In this document: positions 1,446 through 60,979 of the stretch, in pieces
Layout: every line of letters begins with the position of its first letter
Position numbering within the stretch: position 1 is the stretch's first letter
Source of the DNA: Paramacrobiotus metropolitanus
Taxonomy: Eukaryota > Tardigrada > Eutardigrada > Parachela > Macrobiotidae
Direction: 5' to 3'
DNA length: 64,000 bases
Assembly: GCF_019649055.1 (NCBI RefSeq)
Contig: NW_026570235.1
Span: 1,364,001-1,428,000 of the forward strand
The notes under the pieces: generated by a model
What the model was told of the DNA's origin: nothing
Databases searched by the model: none
Seen by the model: only the letters and a program-made list of their open reading frames with translations
Program-made: the position numbers and the translations under genes

Positions 1446-4400
1446 CTAATACGGTGGATGCTTTTCATGCATGTGACGTGCATGCGGCCCCGGCCGCAGA
1501 AAACCAACCCGGCATTCTTCACAGCGATAGGGATAATCCTCCAGCGCTAAATCTTTCCGGCTGTTCCGCGACGGCACTTCCCCGCGGCTCTGTTTCGCCA
1601 GCAATTTCTCTTTGATTTTCACGCGCATTTCCGTTCCGTGCATGTACTTGACATGTTGTCGCAAATATTTGGACGTATTAAAACGCTTCCCACAGGAATC
1701 GCACAAGTAGTTCAACGTTTGGGTATGCGTTTTCATGTGCCATTTCATCTGGAACCTGTTTTTGATGATCTTTTGGCAGACTTCACACACATGCAGCTGT
1801 GAGACATCGTGGTTCTTTTTAATATGGATCAAGATGGATTTGTAGCTGACCGATAGAAAATCACAGCTCGGACAGGGATATTTACTATCCTTTACATGTT
1901 GTTTCTCCACATGCTCCAGCAGTTCCTTTTTCTTTTTGAAGCGTTTGGCACACATATAACACTGCAGTACTCTCTTTGTCTGAAACGAACAATGACCGTT
2001 ATTAATAAAATTAATAATTTGTAAGTTCGTCGCATGTCTTCTGTATTACCGGCAATTTCTTCAAAAACTCATACCCTTTTTAATATTTAAATCTGCTTCG
2101 ATACAGAGAATTTTGAAACGGTTATAATTTTATCCACATGTGTAAACCAAACTTTACGACGTATCTCATATTTTGTATTGATTCAAGCTTACACATTGAT
2201 GTCGCTTCAGGACCAGCTCCGAGGGATAACGTAGGAAACAGCGGGTACACTGATAAGGAAAATCCAAGGATATTTTTTTAAAATGTTCCGGATGACTCGC
2301 TCGTGTGTGCTCGACCATAGAAGGAGTAGTGTGACTGTTGGAGGAGCGGAAGGGAGCGTTACATCCACCCACAGAACAAATACACTGCGGATCGCCAGCT
2401 CGCACTCCGTGTCCGGTGATGTGCTCCGCTAGGTTAACACTATCCGTGGCCACGTAATTGCACTGCGAGCAGACCAGTGAATCACTTGGCACCGGCAATC
2501 CCGCACAATGCACCAAGCGATGCTGCTTCAACAAAAATTCTGTACAAAACCATCGCCGGCAATCAACGTTGCTGCAGGGATGAAAATAGCAATGGGGGTG
2601 GTCAGCGTGCTCCGGATCGGATCTAATGACGGCCGCATTGTCGTCCAGAATGACACCATGTTCGTCCACATGTTTCGCCAGCTCGGCTTGATTCTCACAC
2701 TTGTGATTGCAGTCGATGCACTTCACCGGCGCAGCATCCCCGTTTTCCAATTCCGTTCCGTGTTGGTAGCGATGGAATGACAGCAGTCGGGTGCTGTAGA
2801 ACCGCAGCGGACATGCCGGGCACTGATAACGATACAGAAACGCTTCGTAGTCTTCTCTAAGTTTTTCGCGTTCTGTCCCCATGTACTGTGCGTTTGGCTT
2901 AGGTTTCTTCTTTTTCATGGATTTCGATTTCTTGTACGTTCTGCCCAGCTGCACGTTGGAGGTTTTCGCAGTTGTTGATTTTTTATAGTAATATTTTCTA
3001 TTTTTATAGTATTTCTGCTTAGCTCTGAGCTTCTTAGCTTCCAGCGCCTCCAACAGTCTTGTCTGTGTTCGTGTTTGCCGTCGTTCTGGATTTGGAAGTT
3101 TCACCACTATCCGGTTTGTAGTTGGTTTAATAGCACGCTTAGATCGTCGGGTGATCGTTTTCGAAGAAATAAAATCACCACGGTCGGAACTGACATTCAA
3201 AGTATCTGCAAAATCGTTTTCAATTTATTTGTATTCAATAACCAACACAACCATGAATTCACTTATTCACCAGTACAAACTTGACTAAATCGCCCGTCCA
3301 GGTTTTTTAAAAAAAATATTTGTTTGTACTAAAATTTGCAAAATTCTCTTTTAGAATGCTTAATTACAAATCCGATAGCAGAAATACTGATGAGTCAAAA
3401 ATACTCGCTATAATTACGAAGTTTTCTTCGTTACCATTTTCCATCACAGGATCGGCAATACTGGCGTCAACATTTCCACTAGCCATTCCGCTGATCGGAG
3501 CACTGCTCGTAGGTTCATTCTCGCCGTAATTACCGGCACCATCGACATCATCGGCGCCATTTTCGCCAATGCCACTTTCGGTACAAGCGATTTCACCATA
3601 AGAATTATCAACGAGGGCGTTTTCGCTGCTATCACCATCGAGAATCATATGTTCTACTATTTCGCCACTGATTTCACCAGCAGTATCCTCCGAATTCACA
3701 GCAGTGATCCCATCATTGTCAGCAAGGCGAGGATGCTTTCGTGGTCGACCTCGTGGGCGTTTTACAATGCTGGTATAGCTCGGCAATTTTGGCGGCTTTT
3801 TTGTACTGCCTGGTGGTCGTCCTCGAGGTCTTTTGAATGGGTTTTCAACGATCATTTCGTCATCCATAAGAGAGCGTGGCAATTTTGGAGTGTTTCTGGT
3901 GCCTGGAGGTCGCCCTCGTCCTCTTTTAATCGGGGTATCGATAATAATTTCATTATCCACAGTTTCAGATTTCCTTGGTCTCCCCCTAGGCCTCTTGAAT
4001 GGATTTTGGATGACAATTTCAGTGTCTAATGATACTTGCTTTTTTGGCCTTCCTCGTCCTCTCTTAACCTGGCTGTCAGCTTTAGCCATGGCCTCCTCTA
4101 ACAAATTCAAAGAATTGTCGGCCGGAGATTGCTCATCTCCTGTCTGATGATCTTCGGTTTGATCAACAACGTCATCGGCATCACTGTCAACGACAACTGC
4201 GTCTCTGCAGGACACATAAGAGTTAGCGGAGCTTGTGGAACACGTTTCCGTAGCATCCGAATCATAATCCGCATACCCATTTGACGCATCAAAGTTCCGC
4301 TCCTGGTGAATTTTTTCTGGTTCATTAGACGACTGTCCCTCGCTTGAAGGGAGAAATGTGTTCGAGCTTGAACACGGAAAGCTATTTGCAAAATTTCCAC

Positions 4401-5811
4401 TAAAGCCTGCGGAATGTGTGCTCGCGAAACTTCTTCCCGCGGCCGTGGAGCACGAGTTAAGACTTTTCACAGCGCTGATCCGTGTACTGAGCCGGAGCCT
4501 ACGGCCAGAAAACTCTTCCGAACAATGGAGATCTACAGGCGGATAACGTTCGTCGGCGTTTTCCTCCTCAAAATCAGTATCAAGAGGCAGCCCTGCCCCT
4601 CTGTACTCGTCCGGTTGTGCACATGCACCATTGGTCGGAATTTCGGATTTACGTGGCACCCAAGAAACAACAACCTCCGCATGGGCTTCCGACGAAGTGG
4701 GAAGAAATACGTCATTTCGCAAACCCCGTGCATTTTTCAGAGAAACCGTTGCTGCTGCCTTTTCCACACTCGCACTCTTAGTGGTAGTTGTGGTTACAAC
4801 TTCCATACCGACATCGTCAGAGTCAACAGTGATATTCGGTGTATGGTGAAACACAGAAGCCGCATTATCCTGTACATGCGCTGCCAAATCCACAGGAAAA
4901 TGGATCTTTAATTCCTCCCCGGGATCAATGGCGCGTGTTGTGACAAACATAACATCATTATCGCGGGAACACACGGCCATATTCGGCTCTTCGCTGGTCG
5001 CGGCGATGCGGACGTATTTCATCCAGTTGCAGAAATAATCATTCTCAAACTGGAAACACTCGAATCTTTTGGCAGTTGGTGGCGGACCATCCGTTTGGAA
5101 TTCGGAATGGACCGACGGCGCGATGACCGGTCCAAAAACAGTCTGTGCGGGGATGGATGAGCGCGTGTACACGGATTTGTCTAAATAAAGCAACGCACAA
5201 ACAGTCACCGATTTATTTATCAACAGCAGTCAGGCCACAATGCCATTCCTCCTCATCGCACTCCTGCAGCTACAATAATAATTTCAAATCTACAGAAATC
5301 TTGGAATTATATTTCTGTAATTATAAAAAAATTACGAATATTCCGCTGCACCAGAAACAAAACGGGCAGCTTAGCAAAGTATAATTTGACACAAGTGTCT
5401 GGCCGAGAGAATGGCTAGCAAATTCCCGCTATTACCGCACTCAGACACAAACTGATATAAAATGCTGTTAGACGAAACTAACACCTATCCAAGTACTGTG
5501 TTGGTACTGTAATAAGTCCCTACTGCAGTATGCTGATATGCATTTTCTCAGTTTCCTCGAAGAGAGTTGAGCTGCAATTTGAACTCACGATCAGGAAGCA
5601 GTATGCCATTTTGCTCCGCCGTTCCATCTGCAGGCTCAAAATACAGCTCCTCGGGCAGGCTGCTAATCGCAAGAGGAATGCTGGGTCGATCGGGAATGGT
5701 GCGCGCATGGATCCAGCACGGAGCCAGGTGAAAATCACGGCTGCATTCGATGCAGTCTACAAGATGTGGAACATGAACAAACGGTCTGACATTCTGCCAG
5801 TACGTAATTTT
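1446..5811 (-). CDS. PRDM10-like PR/SET-domain, AT-hook and C2H2 zinc-finger protein (5' end incomplete)
   Basis: Probable nuclear transcription or chromatin factor. Exons on the minus strand: 5811-5589, 5180-3435, 3205-2193 and 1979-1446 (stop TAG); phases are consistent and give about 1,171 residues. The first exon reads a zinc-knuckle-like CIECSRDFH, then IPDRPSIP and SLPEELYF, as upstream of the PR domain in PRDM10. The PR domain continues in the next exon with RSSIPAQTVFGP, CNWMKYVR and PGEELKI. About residues 440-560 hold five AT-hook cores (GRP flanked by R/K). Exons 3 and 4 encode about eleven zinc fingers, including YQCPACPLRF, YPCPSCDF, HVCEVCQK, YLCDSCGKRF and YRCEECRVGF; the finger spanning the last intron is C2HC. 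The PR domain lacks an obvious SET catalytic motif, as is usual in the family. The start codon was not found; the acceptor at 5812-5813 requires at least one more 5' exon. PRDM15 is the main alternative. Confidence 0.82.
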
Positions 5812-7158: not shown

Positions 7159-10100
7159 TCAACATTCGCTGTACGATAGCGGCTGTTCCGGTGGCTTTGG
7201 CATGAGCGGCAAGCGTCTCACCATCTTCGATCCATCACAGAACGAAGTGAGCCCGAATGCATTGTAGTTCCCCTGTTGCAGGGGAATGTTCATCGTCCCA
7301 GGCATCCCAACTGCTGGCATTTCAAGCGGCAAGTGGCCGTGCACGTTAGGCATTGCCGCTGAGTTAACATACGCTTGATTGTCCGGGATGAGCATGACGG
7401 GTTGGCGGGGTGCGGTATGACGGATACGATGGGAATTGGTGGAGCAGCATGACCGGCAACCTAATGAATGCTTGCCATCCACGGGCATGCGCCCCATGAA
7501 GTTAATCAGCGGTTTATGCTCACTGGTCCCGGTACTGCTCAGGCTGGGTCGATAGCTGGGCACTTTGCGATGTCCGTCTGCCTCGCACACCCAGGGCATC
7601 CGGCGCGAGTGCTCTTCGTCCGTACTCATATCCGACCCGCCCTGCTGGTAGATGGACGTGTTGGACTCGTCTGATTCACTGTACGGACACATTTCCTCTT
7701 CCAGCTGCTGAGCATCAATTTCCGCGTAAATATGCTCATTAGGATCCAGACAGTGGCGTCCGTACAAGTGGCGGGCGTTGCGGGCGGCAACACGTGCCGC
7801 GACAGCCGGATATTCTGCTTGCAGGACTTGGGAGGCCTGCTTACGGGCCACGGAAGGGGGATACAAAGTGCGCTGGTGGATGTGAATGGGCTGCATGGGC
7901 GGTGACTCAGCGCTGGGACAGGAGACAGATTCATGCCCGGAATCCCGATTGGAACTGCGGGTGGAGCTCTGCTCCGGGCATTCAGGGTGTTCGCAAGTGC
8001 ACTGCAACACGGGCGCTGGAGAGTGAGGCGGAAGCGTGCTGGTGACGGTGTTGCGGCGAGACGTATCGTAACGTGGTCCATAATAAGGAGCATAATTATG
8101 CATGTACTAAAAAAGACAAATCCAAAGTTGAGTACACATTCGGCTGCGTATTCAGTAAGAACCGTCATCAGTTTGTTATCAAATCCAACTCTATCGTCTC
8201 AACATTTTCCAAAAATTTTTAAAATGAGAACATTCCTTCTAAGCGTTTTGAAAACACATCAAAGTCATTCGGATTACAAAATTCGGAACACCAAATGAAA
8301 GTCAGGAAGTCAGTAGAATGAAAAATAAACGTATAAACCATGTGCTGACAGCCCTTAGATTGCCTTGATTGGGAACCGCAATTTCAAATTACACATACCG
8401 GTTGTTCTTTGTCCAGAGGCGGCGAGCACTGGTAAAATCCTTGACCAGTGGATGGATTGTTGTCGGAAAACGATGATGTTGAACGTGTGCATATACTGCT
8501 AGCAAAGCGCTCGGACTGATTGGAAATAAACTGCCTCAGAGCGATTTTAACCTATTTGAGAGACGAAGACAAACATATATACTAACCAATAAATCAAATC
8601 ATTGCCCCGATAATATGAAATTGATCGACCCAAATTACCTTATCGTTTCGCAGACAAACGAGCACGAAGATGAATAGCCCCTGCACACTATTCAAGAATG
8701 TGAAGATATATGCAAATATGATCGTCTCCAAATTGCCAACATAAAGGAATCCAAAAACCCATGTAATGCTCATGAGAAACGTCAGGCCAATTGCACCGGA
8801 AATCCATGTTTTGATATGCATCCACGAGCTAGGATCACGCGCACGCAGTGCCGTTTGTCGTCCATGATTTTGGCACATAAAGTACATGGCCATTGAAAGA
8901 AACATGACGTTCAGCTGTCAAAGAAACAACCATAATTACCATGAATTTTCCTGCGCAAATTGCTGTTTACGACAATCCGACCGCCGGTCACTTACCACAA
9001 TAATTAGTCCAACAGGAATAACGAAACTCAGAATGAAGTAATTGTCGGCGCGGAGCCAACAGTAATCCGGTGTCGCATAACTGCGCCAGTCCACCGCCAA
9101 ACACACGGCCACAATTAGCAATGGGACACCGTAGCCAGCCAGATAATAATACACGCGACGCGATTTTTCGGAATCAAAAACTTCAACCAGCATCCACCAT
9201 AAATTTAATCCCTCAAATAATGACCAGGCAAACGTGGCCAAGAAAAAATAATGCATCAGCGCGGAAAAAATGTGACATCCCACGGGCAGCTGGGTCTGGT
9301 TAATGCCGGAAATGAACATTATCTCCGCCATCATCAAGCAGAAGGCCAAATTTTTGTGAATGGTCGTGCGCTCCGATTGCAGGCTTCTAAACAATCAAGC
9401 AAATGAGTTGGAGTTGTTTTCAGCAATGTAAATTGTAATTCACTAAGAGCAGCTATAAGTAACATCTACTTTTTAGTAATAATTTAACAAAACCATAAGT
9501 ATAAGTGATAGTATGCATACGCTTTATGTGATATATACACACTGTTTAATCATATTTTAACTTACCGGAACGACCAGAAGATAATTAAAGTAACCAGCAA
9601 GCAGACGATGGAGATTGAGCAACCTATGATCGTTATTTTGGTCAATGCATCGTTATGGGGCGAGGTCCCTATCGTGCCCGTAACATCCATCAAAACTAAA
9701 AAAATCAAATGGTAAAGTGTCGAATGAACCGAATAAAGTTAATCTGATGTTAATTACCGGCAAAATTCGTCAAATGGTCGCACTCGCACACGGTCTTATG
9801 GCTGTAGCTCTTGACCACCACACAGCCGCGCGTCGACCAAGCTCCTTGGAAATTCATCTCCTTATCGTTTTTGTAATCCCAAAAAGCACACATGGTTGGC
9901 TGGCCATTTGCCGGAACAGTGTGTTCGAGCGTGATGATAACCGGTTCCTTCAGCTGAGTGGCTCGATGCACACCATTGATTGCCGCCGATATAACCTTCG
10001 AATTGACAACCATACCAGCCGGCACATTACCGGTCGACGTCGTGCCCACCGCTTCCAAATATTGACCAACATTGTTATAGGACAGGAATACCAGCTTGAC

Positions 10101-13100
10101 CATATTTTCCTGGGTATGATCCTGCAATGCCGCCGCTGTGAACTCTATGCTGTCCGCGGTGTATACTCCCATGGTATCGTTGTTCTTCGGTGGTAACTTG
10201 TAATTTCTTTCCATCTGTTTCGTATGAAATTTCCCAACACCCATGACGATATTATTATCGAAACTCGTCAGAATCGATCCCACGGGAACGTTCTCCGCTA
10301 GCATGAACGCCGTAGTTTCCAGCGATACGATCAGTGTCGTCGCCGTCTCAGCGCGGTTCTCCTCGCTCAGTTCCACCCAGGAGGCATTATGCCGTACGTC
10401 CAACAGATTGCTTCCCGCCTTCAAGACCTGTTCCCCCAATTTCTGCACGCCAATATCTTGTGTGTCATCGGCCACCATTCGTGCCAGCGCCCGCTGTCCT
10501 CGTACCACGATCTTGTTAATAAGGTCCACCGCGCTCGACATGTCACCGCCGGATTTCAGAGCGTTTCTAGACGTCTGGCGTGCCAACTCCTCGGCAAGCT
10601 TTTCCGGTTGTACGTCCCCGCCGGCCTTCCGGCGGATGTCGTCCATCCAGGAACTGGTGCACTGGCGGATATCGGGGAAGCCCTTCCATCTCGGCGGATT
10701 GGTGTCCTCGCAAGTCCATTCGGCGAAAGCTAATCGAAGAAATAAGATACACACGTCAGATGAAGTAATGCTTAACCGTTACACAAGTGACGCAATAGAT
10801 GTATTCTGCGCTATGTTGCTTTGGCCGATCCCCTAATCTCCACAAATCTGGCGGTATTAATCAGAATTACGCGCTCGCTGTATTGTGTAGCACCAATACG
10901 ATCATCATTCACGCACATTAAGGAAAAACAGTCACAATACCGCTTCTACCGTGCAATCTGCCAGTGAGCATTGATCCTGCTACTAATATACCCAATTGCG
11001 TAACATCCACGGACAGCTGTTTTGGTTAGGCAACACGCATTCGTGCGTGTGAATTACTCATATTAATTTTCAAGTCTTCCGGCATACTCCTTTTACTCTC
11101 TGTGCCAATCCATTGTCAGATGTGGAAGCCATGTGGAACGCCATGAAACAAGTAATTTGGGATGGGTGGTGGGCCATTGGGGTGAGGTCTAATTTAAAAG
11201 ATTTTCCGCTAAGCAAACATTACACAGGGATCGCCAATAAATGTGGCCACAATAAACCCACTGATTTAACCTAAATTTTCCTTCAATGAAATGTCCACCC
11301 GTTGTGGCAACAGGTCATTGCTCGACTGTAGCAAGCTAACTTAGCTAGTGAACGTGATATATTCGTGCCAGCATCGGCAGCACAGCGGGTCTTGATTAAT
11401 ACGCGCTGGTTGGAACGCACTATTTTCTCTCATACCTTCAGAATTCTGCAGACACTTTTGGAAGGCCGTGGCTCCCTTTGGTGTAATGGGCCAACGGATG
11501 CCTAGGCGCATGACAGATGGACAGGATTCTGTCGCTGCCGGCGACTGCACCGAATCGGACGGCTGCTGCACAAATTGACCCGGAAGATTGTAACTCGGTG
11601 CATTGTTCGACTGAGGAGAATCTTGCATCCTCGTTCTCCAATTCGGCCTGCCTGTGATTGAACCGGTGTCAATCAATGGCTCGACAGGTGCCGTTGTCGG
11701 GGGCTCGGCAATTAAATCACTTGTTGTCGGCTGTGTGGTGCTTGTTGTCGGCGGTGAAGTGGGTGTTGTGCTCGTTGGTTGAGTCGGGGGGCTTGTTGCC
11801 ATTGTTGTACTCGATGGGGTGGTAATTGTGAAAACGACACTGTAAAACGCGGCTGCGGCCGGTCGTGTGGGCAGCGCTGGCTGCAATGTCTCCGTTGGCC
11901 TCGGCGTTGCAGTGTTTTCTATTAAACAAAAAAATGGAACATAGTTAAATCAATGGAGAAAACGGTAAACACCTTTAACATTATCCGGATGTTTACAAAA
12001 TCGATTAGTAAGTAAATAAATGGGTGGTACATAAACTAAAAAAACCATCTCGATTATTTCTGGATTTTACGGAATCACTCAGCCCGTTTAACTTTCGAAA
12101 TCAGGATTTAAAATTTGTTTGGCGGCGCTACTTATTACAAAATTTTACAGTGCGCGGTACTTTGAGGCAAACTGGATAAAAATAACTGCCGCAATAAAAA
12201 AAGCGCTCTTTCATTCTGATTAGTATTCAAATTTCAAAGCTGTATTGAGTCACTGACTGTGAGTATTCCCATTATTATAACACTTGAACCACAGCCGTGG
12301 CGGTGTCAGTGCAGAGCGCAGCATAATTTCAACATACCGGAAGTGCACTCATAATGAACTTCGAGATATTTGAAGGTGTCTGGGCAAGGGTCATCACCGA
12401 ATGTCCGATCGGCCACTTCCACTGAGCAGGAAGGCTTTTTACTGCATCTGCAATTTAACAAAAGGAAAAATGCATAAATTTGCCGGCTTTATCCAAACTA
12501 ACATCAGCTGTCAATATGCTCGTATTATTCATACTTTTCGGTCAAGACTGGTACTGATGTGTGCGAGGTGCACTTTGTTGACCAGCTGGAGACTCCATCG
12601 GGATTACACACACTGACGCTAAACCGTCCATAATTGGCACGAACGATGCGTATTCGCTGGCCGGGCTCCTCTCCCGGATTATCACATTTTATGTTGAGAG
12701 TGGCTCCTTCGCAAGCATAACTCTGTCGTAATGGCCGCGTATTGCCTGCAGAGCAACAAATAAATAAGCATATTATTAGCTAGCATCCACACGTCAGGCC
12801 TGCTTGCGCCCGATTAAATGCAGCTGCCCACTGGATGTGAATCGCCTTGGACACTGGTCAATAATTACATTCCATGTCGCTCTTAAACTCGATTATCACT
12901 TAGCATAAATCAAGTAACTGTGTCCGTAATTAGCCTCTTGCTCTTCCCACACGCACGCAATACACTCGAACCCACGCAATGTTTCCCGTTGATCAGTAAT
13001 TTCCAGTGCCACTTAGCCCATTCTGCGATCGGTCAGGATGACCAACGTAACCCTATCATTCTTCACCCGGTTTTTGGCACAATTATAATTTAAAACTGCA

Positions 13101-41033: not shown

Positions 41034-43801
41034 ATGGCGTCCACCCAAGTAAATGGTCTTCAGAACAAGCAGCGAAATCGCGCTGTCGTTATCGTTGGGG
41101 CCCAGTGGGGCGACGAAGGAAAGGGAAAGATCGTGGACCTTCTCGCTGTCAAAGCCGACGCTGTATGCCGTTGTGCGGTAAGTCAGTGGATTGCCAATTT
41201 GGCCAGTGATATTCGGGTCCCTCGATTTCTGTTCGCTTTCGGAAGAGCGGACTCAAACGATTCGCGTTGCGTCGTTGAGATGATCGGGTAAACCACAAAG
41301 CTGTTTGTAGGGCGGCAACAATGCCGGTCATACGGTTGTGGCGGGGACAACGGAATACGATTTCCATTTGCTGCCTTCGGGAATTATTAACCCGAAATGC
41401 ACTTCAATAATAGGTAAGGGTCCATGAGACTGCATTAAGGCACGGGAAAGGTAATCGTAGTATATTATTCCTGGATAATTTAAGTGCTGACTTTTTCTTC
41501 TGTATTTGAAAAAGTATAGTGCCGGGCAAATTTGTTCACAAATAGAAAGGTATCGAGTATTTCTGATGCGCATATGCAAAGCAAAAGTTCTAATCGCTGA
41601 CGGAAGGCTATCGTTATCAGCAATTAAGTAACGAATTATTACGGAATGACAAAACCCGCCGGGTCTTTATTAAGATTAATATGAAGTACCGTTCTTCGTT
41701 ATTGGTAACTAAGAATTTTCCGTGCAGCCTTACAGCTTTGTGCCATCTTTTGGAATAGTCGCGCTGATGAAAATTTATCACAATTTAATGAATTCTTGAT
41801 TGAAAAACTACATATAAAGCTAAATATTGTTTACATAAATGACAATCTGATATCTGTAAAATCTTGTCGCCAGTTAGCAAGATACTTCCGCAAATGAAAT
41901 GAGTTATTCTAGTCTGTCAGTGTAGAAAAAAAACCGTCGTGGCTTTCGGAATGAGGTACAGCAGTAATGGCTTAAAATTGTTAATGTTATTGGAAAACTT
42001 TTCCCAGCGCAGATGAATGCGTATCTTTATGTTTCGGATTGTGTTTTGCTAAGCTAACTTCTGTAACAAAAATTGATTTTCCTTATTCAGGAAATGGTGT
42101 GGTAGTGCATTTGCCCGGTTTATTCGAGGAAATCTCTAAAAACGAAGCTAAAGGGTTGAACGGAATTCGCGATCGTTTATACGTTTCCGATCGAGCCCAT
42201 ATCGTTTTCGATCTGCACCAGTCGGTGGATGGTTTACAGGAGAGCGAGAAAGGATTGAAAAAGTGAGTATGCCGTTTTTGACTCAAAGTAAAAATATCGA
42301 AAAATTCCAATTTCAGGCAACAGTTGGGTACGACGAAAAAAGGCATCGGTCCGACCTACGCATCCAAAGCCAGCCGTCATGGGATTCGCATTTCCGATCT
42401 AATCGGTGACTTTGATCGTTTCAGCGAAAAGTGAGTGTGCACAATGCAATTTAGTTTGGTAAAATCAGCTGGTGAAACCCGAATGTACGCATGTAGTTAA
42501 CTATACGGCGGGTGTGTCACGTTAGTAAATCTTGGCTGTGATTTCGCATGCCGCTCATTCATTTTGGCGAGTATTTCGAAGCGGTTTATGTGGTGACGGC
42601 GTTTTTACTACACTGGCAAACATTCGCACTGTTCTTGTACGGTTGTGAGAGGGTGTTGCGTAAAGTTGTGTAGAGTCAGTGCAGACTACGAAAGGTAGAA
42701 ACCCGTTTGAAAGTGCTGATGTATTAATAGACAAGGAATGCTGTGACGTAGGGCTTTTTATAAGAAAAACTACTGACGTGCTTTTGGTGTAATCTGTCTG
42801 GAGTCTCTGGACAACCTTATTTTTAAAATTCGATTTATCGATTTTGCTAACAAACTCATGCCACTGTACAAGGGTGCAGGCTATAGAAACGGTACTTTAA
42901 GTTTTAACTGTGAAGATAAAAAACGAAGGCCCGGCAAATTGAGACAGTTATAATATTTGGAAAAATTCGGTAAAGTTGGTTTGTGGTTAACATTTTATTC
43001 TTTTTCAGATTTCAAAATGTTGTACGCCTGCATAAACAAGCCTTCCCGTCCTTGGAGGTGGATGTGGACGCCGAGATCGCCCGTTATCGGCACTTTGCCG
43101 AAGAGATACGTCCCTTGGTGAAAGACACGGTGTTTGTTATGAACCAGCTGATCACCAATCCCCAGTCCAAGTTTATCATCGTCGAAGGCGCCAATGCGGC
43201 CATGCTGGACATTGATTTCGGTACGTATCCGTACGTGACATCCTCGAACTGCACCGTGGGTGGGGTTCTGACGGGTCTGGGCATTCCCGCCAACGCCCTG
43301 GGTGACGTATATGGCGTGGTGAAAGCGTACACTACCCGCGTCGGTGACGGGCCCTTCCCCACAGAATTAAAAGAAGAACTGGGCTCCATGATACAGCAGC
43401 GGGGTGCGGAGTTTGGGGTTACCACGAAACGACCGCGCCGTTGTGGCTGGCTGGATTTAGTGGTGGTGAAATACACGCACATGCTGAACGGGTATGCAGC
43501 ACTGGCGCTGACGAAACTGGATATTTTGGATGTGTTGGATGAGCTGTTTGTGGGGGTGACGTATAAGTATAACGGCAAGCCGCTGGATTCCTTTCCGGCG
43601 GAATTGGATTTGTTGGAGAAGGTGGAGGTGGAATATGTGAAGATGAAGGGCTGGAAAAAGGATATTAGTGGGGCGCGAAAGTTTGAGGAGTTGCCACCAG
43701 AAGCTCAAGAGTATATATCCCTGGTGGAAAAGGTCGTGGGTGTCCCGGTGCGATGGATAGGGGTGGGCAAGCATCGCGATGCTATTATCTTCCGGGAATA
43801 G
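41034..43801 (+). CDS. Adenylosuccinate synthetase
   Basis: Catalyses the GTP-dependent joining of IMP and aspartate to adenylosuccinate, the first committed step from IMP to AMP, in the cytosol. Five exons (41034-41177, 41311-41413, 42091-42262, 42317-42430, 43009-43801) with GT-AG borders and matching phases encode 441 residues, normal for the family. Diagnostic motifs in order: [14 protein letters not shown], with the catalytic Asp and the GTP loop; [85 protein letters not shown]; and ALTKLDILD. The first ATG gives a short Gln/Asn-rich leader before the conserved core, as in animal enzymes. It is convergent with the OGDH gene, with 1.09 kb between stop codons. No truncation or frame break was seen. 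Confidence 0.96.
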
Positions 43802-44892: not shown

Positions 44893-47800
44893 TCAAGCAT
44901 CAATATGCATAGCATCCGAAATGACTTTTGCTTGCTCAATCTGCAAAAGATTTTGAAACGAAGTTATTAATGGACCAAATGCAACGTATCTTGAGAAGAA
45001 GCCACAAACTCCTTTGCTTCCCACGCCCTTACGGTCTTACCAAATGCTGACTCTTGTTGCCCGTCGCGGGTGATGCTGCCGCAATTCGTCCCACATACCT
45101 ATGAATTACAACCGCATTACTGGGAAATCCGCATCTCCAAACCAAACAAAGTAAAAATACGATACACTAACGTCAAAATAACGTATCTGATCAGGAGTAA
45201 CCAGAGCAATGTACGCACGGGATAAATGGTGCATAGAAACGAAGTTAATTTTGTATAACCATGGAGCGGAATTTACATCAAAACAAGATGCAACTACGGC
45301 ATGAGGTAATCAAGCTTACTTAATGCGGCGCCTTTCCTTGATGTGGTGACGCAAGATGTTATCAATGCGTGGTTGAACATACATCCATGCGCCGGCATTC
45401 TTATGTTCTTCCTGTACCCATGTAATTACCGCATTCGGATACAGCTCCATTTGCTGACGGACTAGGTCATACGGGAACGGACAAATCTGGAAATGGATCT
45501 TTTAATTTAAAGCCGCATTTCAAATTATACCTGTTGTGTCATACGGACATACGTAGGCAAGAAAGGTTAAGTGAGATTTAAGGATTTAGTGTTGAAAAAG
45601 GGGAATCTAAGCACCGAAAGTCAAGAAATTTTCCATGGAATTTTGAACTAAAGCATCACTTGATTAATAACAAAGCATGCTAAATCGATACATTATGCAA
45701 ATATGCTCAGCGATTCCTGGTATGCCGGCCTCCACACATTCATTTTATATCTACTCCTCCTCCAAATTTATAATCGAACTGAAATCATTCCTACCATTAT
45801 TTTCATATCGTACCTGTTCAACTCGAACGATGGCGATATCGTTATCCAGATTTTTCCCAGTTCGTTCTTTAGCCAATTCATAATAGATCTTCCCACTGCA
45901 GAAAATCAGTCGCTTGACACTATCCGGCTTTTCTTCTGCTTTGCCCTGGTCAGAATAGATGCGCTGGAATTCCCGATCAGGTAGCATTTCATCGAAACTG
46001 GAGCGGGCTTCCGGTAAACGGAGGAGACTTTTCGGTGTCATTAAAATGAGTGGCTTACGGAACGGGGTCTTAATTTGACGCCGCATTGCATGGAAATAAT
46101 TGGCCGGTGTTGAGATGTTCATTACTTGCCAGTTAGTGTCACGCAGCTGATCAACAACGTATGTCGGGCTGGATTCGGTCGAGAACGAATCCGGGTTGTC
46201 GCTGGATAACTGCAGGAAGCGCTCTGGTCGTGCGCTAGAATGCTCAGGACCCTACAACAATATAAAATATCAAAATAAAATAAGACTAAGGCATTTCTCA
46301 GATTTCAATTTAAAACAATTCTGAAATAGTGCATGTTTTACCATTCCTTCCATGCCGTGCGGCAACAACATAACCAGACCGCTTTGACGGATCCATTTCG
46401 CTTGACCGCTGGAGATGCACTGATCCACGATACATTGTGCGGTGTTAAAGAAATCGCCAAACTGTGCTTCCCACATGATCAGCGCATGGGGATTGGTCAT
46501 CGAAAACCCTAATTCGAAGCCCAAGACTCCATATTCTGACAAGGAACTGTTGCACACCGTGTAGGGTGCCTGATCAGGCCATAGGTGATTCAATGGTCGG
46601 TATGTTTTTTTATCGACACTCTGGTCGTGCAGTACATGATGGCGATGACTGAAAACAACAATTTTAGCCCAAATTGCAGTTTTCTGCCTCTATAAGCGGT
46701 ACATTCTCACGTGCAAATATCCTTACATAATGCTATTTATTTGATCTTGTTTCAGTTTATCACCGTATTTATTCCACCATGATTTCGCAACAGCAGAGGG
46801 TTTTTACCTGAAAGTGCCTCTTTCGACATCCTGTCCAGATAATCTGACATGAATGCCTTCTTTCAATAACGATCCCCATGCGAGGGCTTCTCCCATCGCC
46901 CAGTCAGCCATGCGCTTTTCAGTCAGCTCTTTTCGCGTCGTTAGGATTTTCTTAATTCCTGTTTGCGCATTACATCAGTAACAGAATTATCGATTTTCCA
47001 GGCATCATCACGCAAATAGTCATTACCTTTATGAATATCCAGGTCTGGTGGCGCGTTACTGAAAACAGTGGCAATATGATGAAGGACTGATTCGTCCACC
47101 CCCGTTGGCTCGATTACTTTCTTGTTGCGAGTACTGAAAAAACCCTTCCCATGGAGAGTCAAGCCAGTCCGAGAATTTAACGTGCGTGGCTTGAGAAGCT
47201 GTTTTGAATGCATCTTCGCAGATGCTCAAATAACTTCCAATTTCTTGCTATAAAAACAAAAAGGTTTAACTCGTGTGTTTGTAGTTGAAAAAAATATTTG
47301 AATTAACCTTAAAGTAATGTTCATCCACAACTCCCTCTATCATCAGCTGAGCGGCGTACTTCTCTACAACGGGTTTGGTCTGGCGAATTTTCTTGTACAT
47401 TATCGGCTGTGTAAACATGGGCTCGTCGATTTCATTGTGACCGCTGCGACGATAACACACCTGCCATAAAATCGGTCACTCCAATTGGGCATGATTTGTA
47501 TAATAATTGCGCACTTTGATTATTTATACAAAAAGGAAATAACAAAGCTCAAATTACCAAGTCGATAACAACATCCTTATGGAATTTCGCGCGCCATTCA
47601 GCAGCCACGGCGCAAACATGCTGCACAGCTTCCGGATGATCAGCATTCACATGGAAAATCGGCGCGTTCACGACACGAGCCACATCGGTACAATACGGTG
47701 ACGAACGAGAAAATCGAGGATCGGTTGTAAATCCAACCTACAAAATTTGTACAGATAGTAACATCAGCTAGGAAACCGGTTCTCAAGCGCACGATATCGA

Positions 47801-49742
47801 ATTTTTAATGCCTAAAAATGGAAATAACGCAAGTTTTACAAAGCGATTACCAAGGCCACAGTAAGAAATAATTATGATACCGGCAAGGTTTTTACCGACA
47901 AAATATTTAAAAATTCATGGTAATCGAATCAAAAGGCTGCCTGACCTGATTGTTGACAACCACATGGATCGTGCCATGTGTGGTGTAATCCGGTAGCTCC
48001 GATAAATGGAACGTTTCATACACAACTCCTTGACCAGAAAACGCGGCATCACCATGCATAATTATGCTCATAACTTTGTCTCCTTCCACGTCTCCGCGAT
48101 AAAACTGTTCCGCCCGTACCTTTCCTTGCACAATCGGATCCACAGTTTCCAAATGGGAAGGATTAGCGCACAGAGCCAAGCGCATCGGTTTATTAGTGAC
48201 GCGATTGATCCGCTCGTGTGACAAGCCGAGATGATACTTTACGTCACCCGAACCCTCATCCGCTGCTTCCAGACTCTTAAATTGTGTTAAGATGGTCTCT
48301 AACGGCTTGCGACAAACGTTGGCCAGAACGTTCAGCCGGCCACGATGGGGCATACCGATGACGATGCTGTCCACACCGCGGGCACTGGATATGTCGATAA
48401 CCGCCTTCAACGCCGGGACCAACACCTCGCAACCCTCCAGACCAAAACGCTTCTCCGACGGCCACTTTTTAGCGAAGAAATCTTCAAGACTGAAAGATAA
48501 AATATTCCTCCAAACATCATTTAAATATATTATGCAGGCATAAATTACCCGGCAGAACGAATTAAACGCTTCAAGAGGGTTTTCTTCTCATCTGCATCAA
48601 GTTTAGTAACACCGGGCACCTCAAACTGCTGCCGCAACCATTCCTGTTGATCTTTGTTGTTGATGAACATGTATTCGACACCGATGACGCCACAATAAGC
48701 CGTCTGGAGGCGCTGAATAATTTCGCGGAGTGGTAGCGCATGCTTTCCGCCGCCGATGTATGTTGTTTCGGGTAGAACGAACACTCGATCCATATCCGCT
48801 TCGCCTGCGCAAATATTTAAAAGCCTGATACATTTTTTTCTAAATTATGGAATTCCGATAATTATGCATATACCAAGATTGTAAGTCGATAACTGCAATT
48901 CAGGAGGCATGAAATCATAGCGCATCGATTCCAGACGCAACGGATCCAAATCCGCAATATGATGTCCGCGCACCTAAACAATGACACGTTCTCATCTGTA
49001 CGAGTATAACAGGTATGAGGTTATAGGTACTGTATAGCTTATAGGTCCTTTTAGAAGTACATAGAATAGTGCGCGAAGACGTACCTGGTAAGCGCGGATA
49101 ACTGCCTGCACTGCGAGATGATCACGAACAGTTTTCTCCAGATTTTCCGGAACGGCTGCCAGATCCAGTGCAGCACCGTATTGTCTGGGTTGAACAGCGG
49201 GTTGTGCTCCACTGAGAGATGGCGGAGACTGATAGGCCTGACTGGGCTTCAAAGCCTTTTGAGACGCTGCTGAAGTAGGAATCCCATGACTATCGAACAA
49301 AACACAATGAAGACATGCAGCGCTAAACAACCGCCCAAAATTTGCGTTAATATTAAAATTCTTTAAACAAGTCACAATAAATTACCAAATCATCAACTCA
49401 GGTAATTCCACAATCAACAGCTGTTGTAAAAACCATGCACGGGAGATTTTTGTTACAAATACTTTTGTGATCCCTTTTGAAATATTTTCAGAAAATTTAT
49501 GATTTAATTCTGAATTCACGACTGACCGGATGAACACTGTTTGGGTTCTTCTTCCATTGTTGGTACATGTCCTCCACATAAACCGAGCTAGATCCCGAGA
49601 GAAAGTTGTCTGCTTTTAAATCAGTGCTGAAGCATCGTCGTGCACCGTCCGCAGCCGAGATGGCGCGTTTCCGGACCGTCATGGCTCCGAAGCGCCCGGC
49701 CAGGTTTAGAACCGCACGACCACGAACAGCTGGTGGATACAT
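44893..49742 (-). CDS. OGDH: 2-oxoglutarate dehydrogenase E1 component, mitochondrial
   Basis: Thiamine-diphosphate decarboxylase of the 2-oxoglutarate dehydrogenase complex (TCA cycle, mitochondrial matrix). Fourteen minus-strand exons: 49742-49527, 49289-49085, 48973-48874, 48804-48549, 48489-47946, 47737-47558, 47460-47308, 47247-47027, 46958-46808, 46648-46342, 46251-45814, 45486-45320, 45098-45041, 44940-44893. The Arg-rich N-terminus fits a mitochondrial presequence. Conserved blocks include [77 protein letters not shown] (ThDP site), [76 protein letters not shown] and [17 protein letters not shown]. Two single-base frame breaks, at 49257-49260 and 47137-47142, interrupt the model. Discounting them, the length is 1,013 residues, close to animal orthologues, and every exon phase agrees. 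Confidence 0.94.
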
Positions 49743-54018: not shown

Positions 54019-57000
54019 ATGTCGAATTTAAAGATTCTTGGTGCGGTATTAGTCCTATCCGTTATTAAAACTGGTTTTTGTTCCGGAAAGTGCAATGCAT
54101 TTCTCGATGCCGCATCGCAAATTGGTCGTAAGTGATTATGCAGATTTCGGATTCACTAGTCCTACCTTGCCCGTTTTCAAACGAGTTATGTTTTGATTAT
54201 GCCTGGTAGATATGCAACCGGATGAGGCCGTAGAGGTTGAGGAAACTTCGACACTAGAACTGTTTTGTTCCTTGTCGGAAGACTATATAAAACGAACCAA
54301 AAACAACTCTATTGACGTGAACGCCAAATCCATTTTTTGGCAGCACTCACGCGATAATAACAACGGCGACTATATCCATGAAGACCTTACGGCCTTGATG
54401 AATGATAAACGGTTCCAGAATGAAATAATCAATGAGACTACAGCAAAAATGATTTTGTCCAATACCACCCTCAAGGACAGTAGCCATTACAGATGTTTGG
54501 TCAACGAATCGATAGATGAACCGCAGCGGATGGTGTGCAGTGTTACAGTTACCGTCGGAGGTGATTTTGGCTGAACATATCGATTTAATTTTTGGCTTGT
54601 CATACAACGAGAATATGGTAATCAAATGCTGTTGTTTCCTATTTAAAGGTCCTCCAAAGCGATATAAGGACTTCGAATGCCGATCGATGGATCATAAAAT
54701 CTTACATGCACATTCAGGAGAGATGATGCATACTATGGGCAGTCCGTGACGAAGTTTGACGTCACGTATCGAGTTGCACTGGATGAACATGCGTAAGTCG
54801 TGTTAAGTTTTTTATTTGCCGTGCCAGCCTCGAAATAAAAGCAGGATTATTTATTATTTGACTGATATGTTGAATTTGTCGATCATTTCGCTGTTTTTCA
54901 GGAATACAACACTGTTCGCTGAACGTAACTGCTCAAACTTTAGCCGACCTGAGAGGGGAAAATCCTCCTATTCATGCTTTATTGGAGTACGCGAGTCGTG
55001 CCCGAAAAACGAAACCTGTCGACCAGCTTTCATGAATCAGTATAAATACATCTTTACGATAAAAGGAACGAATTCGATGGGAACGGATACTTGGACGGAA
55101 ATTGTGGATCCTAGTCAAAGCAGTACGTTGTGCGAATTTTTAATTTTTTTACAAAGGTTTCCTGAATTTCAGTTATGTTTGCTAGTTCTGCTGTCGAAAC
55201 CCAAGGAATTAAATGCTACCTCACTGGATAGCCATCGGTGTGCGGTTGAATGGAAACTGACGCCTGAGTTACAGACTTCGCATATCGTAACTGAGCTGGG
55301 TGTTGTAAGCGAAATTCAGTATCGGAAACTTGGTGGCCATCATGACTGGAAGGTGAGTTTGTGGAAGACATGGGCCATCGACATTAAATACTTCGGTATT
55401 GGTTGTCTTTGTAATGTGAACGCTGGTCGTCACTGGTCAGTGTCGCTATCGGTACCATGTGGATTCTTTAAGTAATTCGTGACTAACCGAAGCGTCATAA
55501 TTCGTGAACTGATCCAAGCTTTAAACGGAGATCTGTTTAACAGCATGCGGCAGTTGAACCCCGCGAACAGCGTGTCGAATTGGACGATTTGGATGCCTAT
55601 GCGACGTATGAGATCCAAGTTCGATTGCGGATGAATAATAACATGTTCTGGAGCGAATATAGCCAGACGCACTGTACAACGCCAGCTGCTAAACCGGCCG
55701 GCAAGCCGGGTGCGGTTCAGGGAGCCTTCGATCAGACTGTAAATGGACCTAAGGGTCAGAGAAAGGTCATTTTGTACTGGCAGGTACGTAGAAGGTGTTT
55801 CAGTTCTTGAAATATTAGAAGGACGAATTTTTTATGTAACAATTATTTGCATTATATTTATTGGGATATCTGCAGGGTATTCCGGAAAGTAAAAGGAATG
55901 GTGAAAATTTCCGCTACGAAGTGTCCACGTGGACCGATGGAACAAAGGATTACCCAATTCATCAGAAGACTTACAGTCACAGATACGCAAACATTGAAAT
56001 AAGGGATCTGCCTTCCAATGAGGCTGTTAATGTAGAGATTATTCCGAAGAACGATGAAGGGAATGGTGAAGCTGAGATTGTGCGCATACCGGCTGTTCAA
56101 GAGAATTCATGTAAGTGCTGGTCGGTGTCACCCTGAGTTTGGTTGGGTTAGTTTTTTGTAGATAAACATATTATGCACGAAAAAAGAAATAAAATCTCCT
56201 AAGTGATACAAGGTAGGCGGTGTTGTAAATCACTGCTAGTGGTGATTTTGTACACAACTTCCGGTTAGCGAAGCTTAAGTGCGGTGTTACGCTAATTGGA
56301 TTGCCTTTTGTACGTCCACCCATGGCAGTGTTTTGTTGGTCAGTATCACTGCTACAAATCGTTTTTTTTGTTTAGTGGTTGTGAAGGATATCCGAGTTGT
56401 GAATTTTACTTCATACCTGGAACTGTCATGGAATGTTTCGGGGAGTTCTAGTCCTGAAACGCGTGCCTTCGATTTGTTTTACTGTCCAACATTCCTGGAA
56501 CCACATTTTGCTTGGTGTACCGAAAATATGCACCACGAAAGCCTCTCTGGCCATACGTTTGCCTATAATTTTACACCACAACATGGAAAACACTATCGTT
56601 TTGCATTGGCGGCAAGAGAAAATGTGTCGGATCGTGTAATGTACAGCGGCATGAACTGGGCATTACGGACATGCAATCCACTTGAGAGTGCGTAAAAATG
56701 CTTCAACTGTTGATATCCCTCTTGTAATTTAGAATAAAAGTTCAATTGTAAAAACTGTGGTCATCGGGTTAATCCCTGATTGTGACAGTTTCCTTTTGCT
56801 TTTGATGTGGAATGATCTTTTGGTTTTCGTTCTAATGTTAAAACTAATTTTAGAACATGGACGTTTGGATGGTCTGAACGTGACTGCTTTGCCCAACGCC
56901 ACGGTTTTGGTGCAATGGACCGAACCGTGCGAACAGAGATTTATGCCAATACCTCCGGAGTATCAAGTCAGTTATTCCCCATGTGACAGTCGAATTTGTG

Positions 57001-58783
57001 GTAAGTGATTTTCGTAATCGTGATGGACTAATTTTTTAGTGCATAGAAGATATTGGAAATGAATGTTTTGTCTGTTTGCAGTTGCCGACCAGATTCAAAA
57101 GACCAACTCGACTTCCGTTATTTTGAGCGGACTGAAAGAAAGTTCTCGCTATTGCTTTTTTGTGGACGTTAATAACTCCAGTACTGGTATTGACTTCGAT
57201 CCAGCCCAGCAGTGCGTAAGGACAACCGCTATTGGTAAGCGACATAGTGTTCTTCAGATATAAATGGATTTTGCGGTTGCACGTGATTCGTACGCAGATG
57301 TTAAATCATTTTATGTAACTGGATGTTTGTATCTGGTTTAGATCACGAATTTCCTGTTGCAACTGGTGTTGGTATCGCTCTCGGTACGGCTGTTTTGCTG
57401 ACGATCCTGGCAGTTGCACTATGGCGAGGAATCAGACGGTACGAAAACAATGTCGTAATTCACTCCAACGTGATAACTTTGCGTAATTGTTGGCAGCATA
57501 GAATCGTATAGCGTGTCAGTGTTTTGCTAATTATTTTTGGTTGGGTTGAAATAGCATGCAGAAAGATTTCAAGGAAATTCAACGAGAAAGTCGAAAAATA
57601 ATCATACCGGCTTCGAAAATTGGCAAGGATGAGGATGAATTCGATGAACAGGGTATCGCTTATTACAGCAAGATTGATTATGGAGAAAAGAAAAAGTCCT
57701 ATTCACGTCAGCTTAGTGACAATAGTGGGAGCAGCTCCGGTCATGGAAGTTTATCTTCAGAGTTCACGGTCAAGGTATGCGCTGCTAATATCGAATTACT
57801 CTGCATCAGAATTTTTTGGCTGCATCGTGATCATTAAACCTCTTGTTGGCTTGTTAAAAAATCTGTTCTGCTGATTGCATTAGATGTTTACAGAGTGCTG
57901 TGTAGTCTCCTTTAAGCTTTTTGTGTTACGAATTGGTTAGTTGAGAAATGTGCAAAATATTCCTGCCCTATAATAAATAGGGAAGCCCGTTAAGTGTTTT
58001 TTAACATGATTGTTTATTTTGGCGCAGTCTTCCGGCACGACCACCGCGGATGATGCCCATTTGATCGTGGTTGACAAACGTGAGCCTAGTCAGTTGGCCG
58101 GCGTTCACCGGCCTGCCAGTACCATGCCGAAAAAGCATCGTCATCGTTTATCGCATGTTGATCTGAGCAGTGCACGTACGGCCCTGCAACGTGATAACGA
58201 TGCCGCTGAGACTGTCAGCCTTGGCCGCTCCAGTTACGGCTATGCAAACAGACCGTTCAAGTTGGAGTCGTTGTCGCATTTAAAACTAAATCTCAAAAAA
58301 CCACCACGTCGACCTTCCTCGTTGGTGCGCGTGATATCCGAGACGGAGTCAACACATGCGCCGGTGGATTCCGGTCTGTCGGGAGCGAGCGAAGATCCCG
58401 CTACCTTTGGTTATGTCCCTCCGTCCAGCCTGCAGGCTAACGCGTCCAGTGGATCCAGTACGGGCAATAACACGGGCGGTACGGGGTATGTCTCGCATCC
58501 GTCAACCCTACATGACACCAGTGGTATGACCGCTGAAGTCTCGGGGGATATTGAGATGAGCTCCCCCGTACACGGGCGCAGTGCGGGCAAATTGTTCGTG
58601 GATGCGACACAGCCGCCCGATGGGAATGAGGACGTGCGGTCCAAATTCTTGGATAATGAATTCGATAATCGGTCTCCGGTTAGCAGTGGCCAATCGTCCC
58701 CGATTATCCCTACAACGCGGTTACTTAGTCCTCCGCATTTTGTAAAAGAGACAGTAAGCAATGGATATGTCCCATGGCCGTAA
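54019..58783 (+). CDS. Class I cytokine receptor, gp130/Domeless-like
   Basis: Single-pass receptor expected to signal through JAK-STAT. Thirteen exons (54019-54127, 54210-54560, 54649-54792, 54902-55122, 55186-55352, 55544-55783, 55876-56110, 56376-56687, 56854-57000, 57082-57234, 57342-57438, 57555-57774, 58028-58783) give about 1,050 residues. Order: signal peptide (LKILGAVLVLSVIKTGF); Ig-like domain ending DSSHYRC; cytokine-binding module with FECRSMD and LTCTF cysteines, then a second half ending in a WSXWS-like WSEYS (near 55,655); three further FN3 domains; transmembrane helix in exon 11 (VGIALGTAVLLTILAVAL); and a tail of about 325 residues with GYVPPSS, GYVSHPS and GYVPWP. One base appears missing in the A-run at 54696-54699; allowing for it, all phases agree. 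The ATG at 54019 is preferred because it starts the signal peptide; an in-frame ATG lies upstream at 53941. Confidence 0.85.
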
Positions 58784-60587
58784 AGGATTGGAAACGAAAT
58801 GGAATAATCCGGCGTTTTGTGCTTTTATTTTGATCTGTTGTTCCCTTTCTCGTTTGTAAGCCGACAAAACTGCATCGATGGATAAAGTTTTCGTTTGGGG
58901 AACGGAGACAGTATTATGGCCATATGGCATGTGATTTCCGTTGCGTTGGCTGTCGCGGGGACAGTGAGTTGGCAAGATCCAGGTTTTGCGATGAATAGCC
59001 ACAGGAAGATGGATTAAGCTGCATGTTTTGTGTATTTCTGTGTTCTGGTGTCTCGGTCTGCCTCGGTATTTCATTGTTTTCGTTTGATTTATTTGGGTTG
59101 TCGGGGTGTTATTTCTGGTCACTGGGGACCGAGAATTGACCGAATCTGAACTGAAAGCCGGGATTTTGTTTGGTGATTTTGCACGCCCGCAAATAACTGC
59201 TGTTGGACATTCGTCTGTATTTATGTTATTTATGTATAGGATGATGGCTTCTTGTCGTTTTGCGTCCCTTTGAGATAAAAGATAGATACTATTGTGTTTA
59301 TCGGAATTTATTTGGTTCTTAACGCTCAGAATGTAATATATTTTCATGTTTTCTTGCTCGCTTACGGATACGATTATTCTGTAAGCTTTTTTAGGAGTTG
59401 TTTTTTCGTGCTTTCTTGAGCGCGCACACCTCTTGGCATTAAAGAGTTATGGAATGCGTATGTCATTTCGGTTGAGTATCCATAATTTCTGCTCTGGTTT
59501 TTGCTTGTGCAGTGATTTGAGATTTAAATTATCTTGACTTGTTCTGACTACTTTTTGTTGTGGAGTACGATTTCATGTCCATGAAAATGGAAAGTGGTCA
59601 GTTATTTGTCGAAGTTGCTAGTATCTGCAATGAAAGTGCTTTCAAAGCCCAAGAAGCGAATGTCACATCAAATTATCAGCTGCACGAGTTAAATTTTCTT
59701 CTGGCTATTTCTAGTTGGGATAAAATACTGTAGTTGGAAATTGTACTTAATTGGATGCTGTAACGTAAATTGATCATATACTGAAATCTACAGACCGTAG
59801 CATTTATTGTATCAGCAGGAAAATTAACGCCACCATTTTAAAATTTTGTCCAGATTCAACGACAGAGCAGAAGTCCCGAAAGCCGTGCCGTGTTGACAAA
59901 TTTTGCAAGCGGGTTTAAACTTTAAAGACAACCAAAGCCGCCGGTCGGCTACGTAACTTTACTTTATCCATCCGCTCAACAGTCTACATTCTAAAATTAA
60001 ATCACCCCTCAGTGACCCCTCACCCCTGTAATCCGCGTTCCCCTTGTACAGCTTATGGCTATTAATCAAATTATTTATTGATACTCCGTTTAAATTACCG
60101 TAGCCAGATTCTGAAGAAATCGCGTAATGACAGTAACGCTTTGGTTTCCGACCTTCGATCGCTCTTTCGGTGCACGTGTGCTAGTAATGTAACAGAAACC
60201 TGCAGGAACCTGCAGGATGCTGGAACCACCGGAACGTGGAAATTAGCTGACCAGCCACCGATGGCGGTTGGAATAAGCCAATGGTTCACGTCTGGTAAAA
60301 CCGTAAAAGGTAAAAAAGTGGAAAAGGTGTCTTTCGGAATTTCGTTATTTCGGTCTTCTGTTTGGTTTTCGTGACTTGTCAGAATTTTTCTGATTGATTT
60401 GTCAGAAAGTTTGGACCATCTTAATACAACTATTAGCACGAGGTTTTTAAATTGCGCTGTGAGTGTTTTGGAACTGTATTGATATTCACTAGCAGCTTCC
60501 AGATCTGAGTTATCGCGGACGTGCTGGATTATTGTTTGTCTCTTGATTTGATTCTGAGTTAATCAGTTTAATCTTCTTCGAAAGAAA
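58784..60587. other. 3' flank of the cytokine receptor and upstream region of ROMO1
   Basis: No supported gene. The first several hundred bases are probably receptor 3' UTR, and the last part should hold the ROMO1 promoter. A 208-codon antisense frame (58,721-59,347) overlaps the receptor's coding end and has no recognised features. A direct repeat of CCTGCAGGA occurs at about 60,199-60,219. Confidence 0.45.
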
Positions 60588-60979
60588 ATGCCAGTCTCAG
60601 CAGTCCCCCAGGCAAGGCAGGGAATGCAGCAGCCCAGTTGTTTCGATCGGATGAAACTGGGATTCGGGATAGGTTTCTGCGTAGGAATGGCATCCGGAGC
60701 TTTGTTTGGTGGTTTCGGAGCGCTAAGGTAAATATTACTGACGGTCTTATCTTAGCCGCAGCTGTGATTCTTCAAGATATTGCATCATGTTTTACCTGCC
60801 ATGTGCTTCGTACAGTAAGAACATGCCCTAGCTATTCTTCAGCCTTCTAACTGGTGTGTCTACTTTTCAGAGCGGGATTTCGTGGTCGCGAACTAATTCA
60901 GCACGTGGGGAAAACCATGTTACAAGGCGGAGGCACTTTTGGCACTTTCATGGCCATCGGCACGGGAATACGGTGCTAG
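60588..60979 (+). CDS. ROMO1: Reactive oxygen species modulator 1 (ROMO1)
   Basis: Small mitochondrial inner-membrane protein linked to ROS production, mitochondrial fusion and protein import. Two exons (60588-60727 and 60871-60979) joined in phase 2 encode 82 residues, against 79 in humans. Diagnostic features: [20 protein letters not shown]; a glycine-rich helix ([13 protein letters not shown]) continuing across the intron; then [33 protein letters not shown] and the stop. The terminal GIRC and two Gly-rich membrane helices are hallmarks of the family. Either ATG near the start is possible, but the first gives the usual leader length. A candidate polyadenylation hexamer lies at 61241-61246. 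Confidence 0.96.

Follow-up and report, generated by a model that had tools for sequence, protein, structure and literature searches.

Does the plus-strand gene at positions 54019–58783 of the window studied here (the whole 64,000-nucleotide stretch of Paramacrobiotus metropolitanus contig NW_026570235.1) encode a cytokine receptor of the gp130/Domeless type with an N-terminal Ig domain, as the original prediction proposed, and what would such a receptor tell us about the history of its family? The receptor gene is real, confirming the observation, and its span had been given exactly, from the start ATG at 54019 to the stop codon ending at 58783. In our spliced model, 13 exons code for a product of approximately 1050 residues; all exon joins display GT-AG sites, phases are consistent across the 13 exons, and the 12 introns range from 63 to 265 bases. 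The product comprises, in this order, a signal peptide, one Ig-like domain, a cytokine-binding module of two domains (D1–D2) with a WSEYS box, three FN3-size domains, one transmembrane helix and a 326-residue tail. Every feature said to be directly visible was located: DSSHYRC in exon 2, WSEYS at residues 367–371 in exon 6, the hydrophobic helix at residues approximately 699–719, and the paired cysteines, recognized in D1 by their spacing (C-X9-C then C-X14-C). Taken together, we consider it very probable that the product is a class I cytokine receptor that crosses the membrane once and is laid out like gp130.

This assignment and the gp130-like domain order are supported by sequence matches in both Pfam and PDB. 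Taken alone, the D1 piece exceeds the Pfam cut-off for LIFR_D4 (8.5e-6, 26.3 bits versus 25), followed by EpoR_lig-bind below cut-off (0.18), and does not match the D200 domain of class II receptors. The D2 piece matches fn3 (1.6e-5, 25.5 bits versus 25). When the whole protein is scanned, fn3 reaches 1.3e-12 and LIFR_D4 falls below its cut-off (0.0059); the Interfer-bind family passes its cut-off for the whole protein only (22.6 versus 21), with its best stretch in FN3 leg 3, and scores 19.2 for leg 3 and 13.8 for D2 when these pieces are scanned alone. In PDB, the best match of the ectodomain is LIFR (3.8e-8), over residues 232–508, a stretch running from midway through D1 across D2 and FN3 leg 1 into the beginning of leg 2; IL-2R beta comes second (1.1e-6, over D2) and contactin-6 third (2.9e-5). 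A lack of significant matches to class I receptors had been named as the outcome that would speak against the family assignment; with D1–D2 alone, class I receptors occupy 12 of the 13 PDB rows at E ≤ 10 (seven IL-2R beta, three LIFR and two IL-7R alpha), the remaining row being a sperm protein (0.36). The best values are 2.2e-7 for IL-2R beta and 2.9e-4 for LIFR, and all eight rows at E ≤ 0.001 are class I, but correspond to these two molecules only; moreover, the seven IL-2R beta rows all represent variants of a single receptor, and their alignment, in which WSEYS sits at the aligned place, falls mostly in D2. The reversed D1–D2 sequence retrieved no Pfam family at E ≤ 10 and no PDB chain.

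Several observations nevertheless weigh against a class I receptor of the gp130 type. The D1 motif as printed for class I receptors is C-X(9-10)-C-X-W-X(26-32)-C-X(10-15)-C, whereas the cysteines found here read C-X9-C-X-F-X35-C-X14-C (the first spacing counting one X at a frame change described below), with CTF in place of CXW and 35 residues instead of the printed 26–32. Likewise, WSEYS replaces WSXWS and keeps three of the four fixed residues; WSXWS is itself described as slightly variable in the published account of class I D2. The LIFR match gains nothing from the start of D1 (−2.3 bits), and gp130 was matched neither by the whole ectodomain nor by D1–D2 in the PDB searches. Lep_receptor_Ig and IL6Ra-bind, the profiles named for gp130 (PMC12162339), were not among the Pfam matches of the whole protein or of its pieces, and neither FN3 leg 1 nor leg 2 is matched by a Pfam family.

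The FN3 legs also bear on the alternative that the gene encodes a neural Ig/FN3 adhesion molecule resembling contactin or Dscam; a better placement among such molecules had been named as a second outcome unfavourable to the original prediction. Among the three FN3 domains it listed, the third stands by its Pfam score and the first by PDB match, whereas the middle one has no sequence match in Pfam or PDB. For the legs alone, PDB does favour contactins (contactin-6, 3.7e-6) over gp130 (0.018, leg 1), contactin-6 ranks third for the ectodomain as stated above, and a DSCAM FN3 profile weakly matches D2 (residues 318–358; 0.0018 when the whole protein is scanned and 0.031 with the D2 piece, neither reaching the cut-off). 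The better placement thus holds for the legs but not for D1–D2, where no adhesion molecule appears among the 13 PDB rows and the eight best are class I, and where D1 exceeds the LIFR_D4 cut-off. Contactin and Dscam molecules carry several Ig domains in series before FN3; this series is absent here, a single Ig-like exon being followed by D1–D2, and the transmembrane helix and long tail likewise make an adhesion molecule highly improbable. A different alternative, compatible with the class I assignment, is that the locus is a decayed receptor copy that makes no product. Indeed, exon 3 contains a stop codon in each of its three frames (54665 and 54695 in one; 54747 in the second; 54724, 54757 and 54784 in the third) and requires a single change of reading frame between 54698 and 54746, which also counts against a working receptor; we translated its two sides separately and joined them by X, with no base added. 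However, the 12 other exons are open, their phases and splice signals match over approximately 1000 codons, and exon 13 was open in none of 5000 mononucleotide shuffles. Because these 12 exons remain open, a sequence error is probably the simpler reading of the frame change, and a pseudogene seems quite unlikely.

If the class I receptor with gp130 layout is functional, D1–D2, perhaps together with the Ig domain, would bind a secreted helical cytokine, and the three FN3-type legs would hold two receptor chains, bringing the membrane helices together. A JAK kinase on the membrane-proximal tail would then be activated and phosphorylate tail tyrosines (the YSRQ and GYVP motifs), on which STAT proteins would dock before moving to the nucleus. 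The tail, counted from residue 725, has nine tyrosines and one YXXQ motif (YSRQ at 775), and no Pfam match. A G-Y-V motif is repeated along it (table 1), with GYVP at 927–930 and at the C-terminus. YXXQ and GYVP could serve as docking sites for STAT or for adaptors; a G-Y-x-P sequence likewise closes gp130, a resemblance that offers no more than a lead. Two points weigh against this scheme: a single YXXQ among nine tail tyrosines could be a chance match, and Box 1, a P-x-P near the membrane that is a motif of JAK-coupled receptors, is absent there, P-x-P occurring only at 625 (extracellular) and 1048 (C-terminus). The latter would be expected of a class I receptor that does not itself signal through JAK, either as a decoy, as a co-receptor or with a tail serving other adaptors, and a non-signalling relative of Domeless, Latran, is described in the fly (PMC2914635). 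Yet the intracellular part of Latran is, in the same account, shorter than that of Domeless and devoid of a STAT site, whereas the present tail is long and tyrosine-rich with one YXXQ; we therefore regard a receptor uncoupled from JAK as unlikely.

The N-terminal Ig domain is a likely, not a proven, assignment. Exon 2 matched five Ig families in Pfam, each below its cut-off (best 0.0023), and 43 of its 47 PDB rows belong to the Ig superfamily by molecule name, the other four being amidase; the best PDB value is 0.0048, with no row at E ≤ 0.001. By comparison, the reversed exon gave no Pfam family at E ≤ 10 and one unrelated PDB chain (E 1.2). Structure prediction, suggested as a check alongside the original prediction, was run on exons 2 and 8 singly and without alignment, and both models are of low confidence: five strands and two helices for exon 2 (predicted local distance difference test score, pLDDT, 51), and five strands and one helix for exon 8 (pLDDT 47). 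A Foldseek search with the exon 2 model gave a best E of 0.06 and nothing at E ≤ 0.001, although the best 50 of its 1903 matches are, by title, nearly all antibodies, T-cell receptors or other Ig proteins, with one transporter. A scan of viral contigs with this exon retrieved no relatives.

The exon structure provides a further line of comparison. From the intron that precedes D1, through those within D1 and at the D1–D2 boundary, to the one within D2, the phases are 1-2-1-0, the phase 2 in D1 being read from exon 4 owing to the frame change in exon 3. Class I genes generally share phases 1-2-1-0; no published statement of their intron phases was found among the literature matches listed. These phases equal the first four of the class II pattern 1-2-1-0-1-0, given in PMC8863823 for most IFN-upsilon-R1 genes (IFN, interferon) in a comparison with other IFN receptor genes. 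Against a shared layout, nothing here corresponds to the fifth phase of the class II pattern (a 1 following D2), as exon 6 extends into FN3 leg 1 and leaves in phase 0. The D1 cysteines are split two and two between exons 3 and 4, with WSEYS in exon 6; chicken IL2/15R beta has the same two-and-two split over exons 3 and 4 according to PMC3360756, its WSXWS lying in exon 7. According to the account in PMC1963337, the module of fly Domeless is a single exon and the Ciona gp130-like gene resembles GP130 in its splicing. The exon layout of the window gene thus resembles the chordate one, because its split module is similar to the splicing of IL2/15R beta and of the Ciona gene, unlike the single-exon module of fly Domeless.

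The point of interest is accordingly the combination of an Ig domain with chordate-like exon phases. If the host is a protostome, an Ig-bearing gp130 plan and this exon layout can occur outside deuterostomes; fly Domeless would then represent the ancestral receptor poorly, and phases 1-2-1-0 would be a marker for divergent cytokine receptors missed by sequence searches. We tentatively suggest, as a reading that may well prove wrong, that the gp130 plan (Ig, a four-exon module with phases 1-2-1-0 and three FN3) is the ancestral bilaterian state retained here, with a module layout predating the split between class I and class II, and that insect Domeless is derived, through loss of both the Ig domain and the module introns and acquisition of the LDHR.

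Table 1. Exons of the receptor gene and neighbouring features, in positions of the window.
Feature	Position	Strand	Content
Exon 1	54019–54127	+	start codon and signal peptide (MSNLKILGAVLVLSVIKTGFCSG...); hydropathy 1.50 at residues 1–21; ends phase 1
Exon 2	54210–54560	+	N-terminal Ig-like domain (likely), one exon, phase 1-1; holds DSSHYRC
Exon 3	54649–54792	+	D1 first half, cysteines 1–2; one frame change within 54698–54746
Exon 4	54902–55122	+	D1 second half, cysteines 3–4 and a C-x5-C pair; in phase 2 (from own frame), out phase 1
Exon 5	55186–55352	+	D2 first half (HRCAVEW); IL-2R beta alignment; out phase 0
Exon 6	55544–55783	+	D2 second half with WSEYS, start of FN3 leg 1; out phase 0
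Exon 7	55876–56110	+	remainder of FN3 leg 1; PDB matches contactin FN3 3.7e-6, gp130 FN3 0.018
Exon 8	56376–56687	+	FN3-size domain 2, one exon, phase 1-1; assigned by size and position
Exon 9	56854–57000	+	first half of FN3 leg 3; leg 3 fn3 1.2e-6, 29.0 bits versus cut-off 25
Exon 10	57082–57234	+	second half of FN3 leg 3
Exon 11	57342–57438	+	transmembrane helix, residues ~699–719; mean hydropathy 2.22
Exon 12	57555–57774	+	juxtamembrane tail; one YXXQ (YSRQ); no P-x-P
Exon 13	58028–58783	+	rest of tail and stop codon; GYVPP, GYVSHP, C-terminal GYVPWP
PRDM2-like	1446–5229	−	PR domain, AT hooks and C2H2 zinc fingers across three adjacent open reading frames
Adhesion G-protein-coupled receptor	7159–12461	−	exons with 7tm_2, GPS and GAIN; SUEL lectin exon ~12345–12461
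Adenylosuccinate synthetase (ADSS)	41088–43801	+	main open reading frame 159/264 identical to best PDB match (isozyme 1 by title)
2-oxoglutarate dehydrogenase E1	45751–48587	−	exons
ROMO1	60558–60731	+	exon, downstream of the receptor

Beyond the receptor pieces, Pfam scans of the window covered 20 open reading frames (19 of the 107 of at least 85 amino acids and one shorter), 10 of which gave a match, and the stretch 12–42 kb in all six frames. No JAK, STAT or cytokine family was among the matches of these 20 frames, of the receptor pieces or of the six-frame scan. The three frames with PRDM2-like content are possibly a single gene, and the adhesion G-protein-coupled receptor, which we take to be Latrophilin/CIRL-like, shares its interval with two more open reading frames with no Pfam match. 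The neighbouring genes of table 1 are in keeping with an animal host, and the ADSS identity together with the short introns would point to an invertebrate, the compact introns perhaps to a tardigrade. In the six-frame scan, the sole matches at E ≤ 0.01 are two ADSS exons and the SUEL lectin exon; the 12.5–41 kb stretch between the latter and the ADSS exons near 41.1 kb, free of any domain at this threshold, may correspond to long introns or to a gene-poor stretch.

Compared with known receptors, the product shares with gp130/IL6ST the order of a likely Ig domain, the module, three FN3-size domains, the transmembrane helix and the long tail, as well as the weak match of FN3 leg 1, and differs from it by WSEYS, CTF, the lack of a P-x-P Box 1 and the missing gp130 matches noted above. 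LIFR carries two cytokine-binding modules, the second of which (D4–D5) is the one compared here; in PDB the ectodomain matches LIFR best, and D1 passes the LIFR_D4 cut-off, but the window gene has one module, with the Ig-like domain N-terminal. Domeless is described in PMC2914635 as a module, three FN3, a transmembrane helix and a tail with a STAT site, with an LDHR, approximately 200 residues long, after the module. The window gene shares the order of module, three FN3-size domains, helix and tail, including a candidate STAT site in the tail, and is set apart from Domeless, by the published descriptions, through its N-terminal Ig-like domain and its four-exon module (one exon in the fly). The LDHR is absent after the module, D2 continuing into FN3 leg 1 within exon 6, and no Domeless chain appears among the PDB matches of the ectodomain, D1–D2, Ig exon or FN3 legs. 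For shrimp Domeless, PMC5645147 reports five FN3 alongside an IL-6R alpha domain. The Ciona gp130-like gene, compared by description (PMC1963337), has the same gp130 topology and gp130-like splice structure, but is a chordate gene. No Ig-bearing receptor of a tardigrade or other protostome was found by title or abstract among the matches listed, a 2026 survey aside. The view that such receptors are few in protostomes, with Domeless the known one, is out of date: PMC4833078 lists Domeless in six of seven non-insect arthropods (Daphnia, Strigamia, Metaseiulus, Tetranychus, Ixodes and Parasteatoda, not Mesobuthus), and PMC13203501 traces IL6R to Mollusca and states that IL6R and gp130 normally combine an Ig and an IL6R domain with three to four FN3 and a transmembrane region. 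Since arthropod Domeless and molluscan IL6R-type receptors are thus already reported, the window gene is a further member of a known receptor family rather than a new category.

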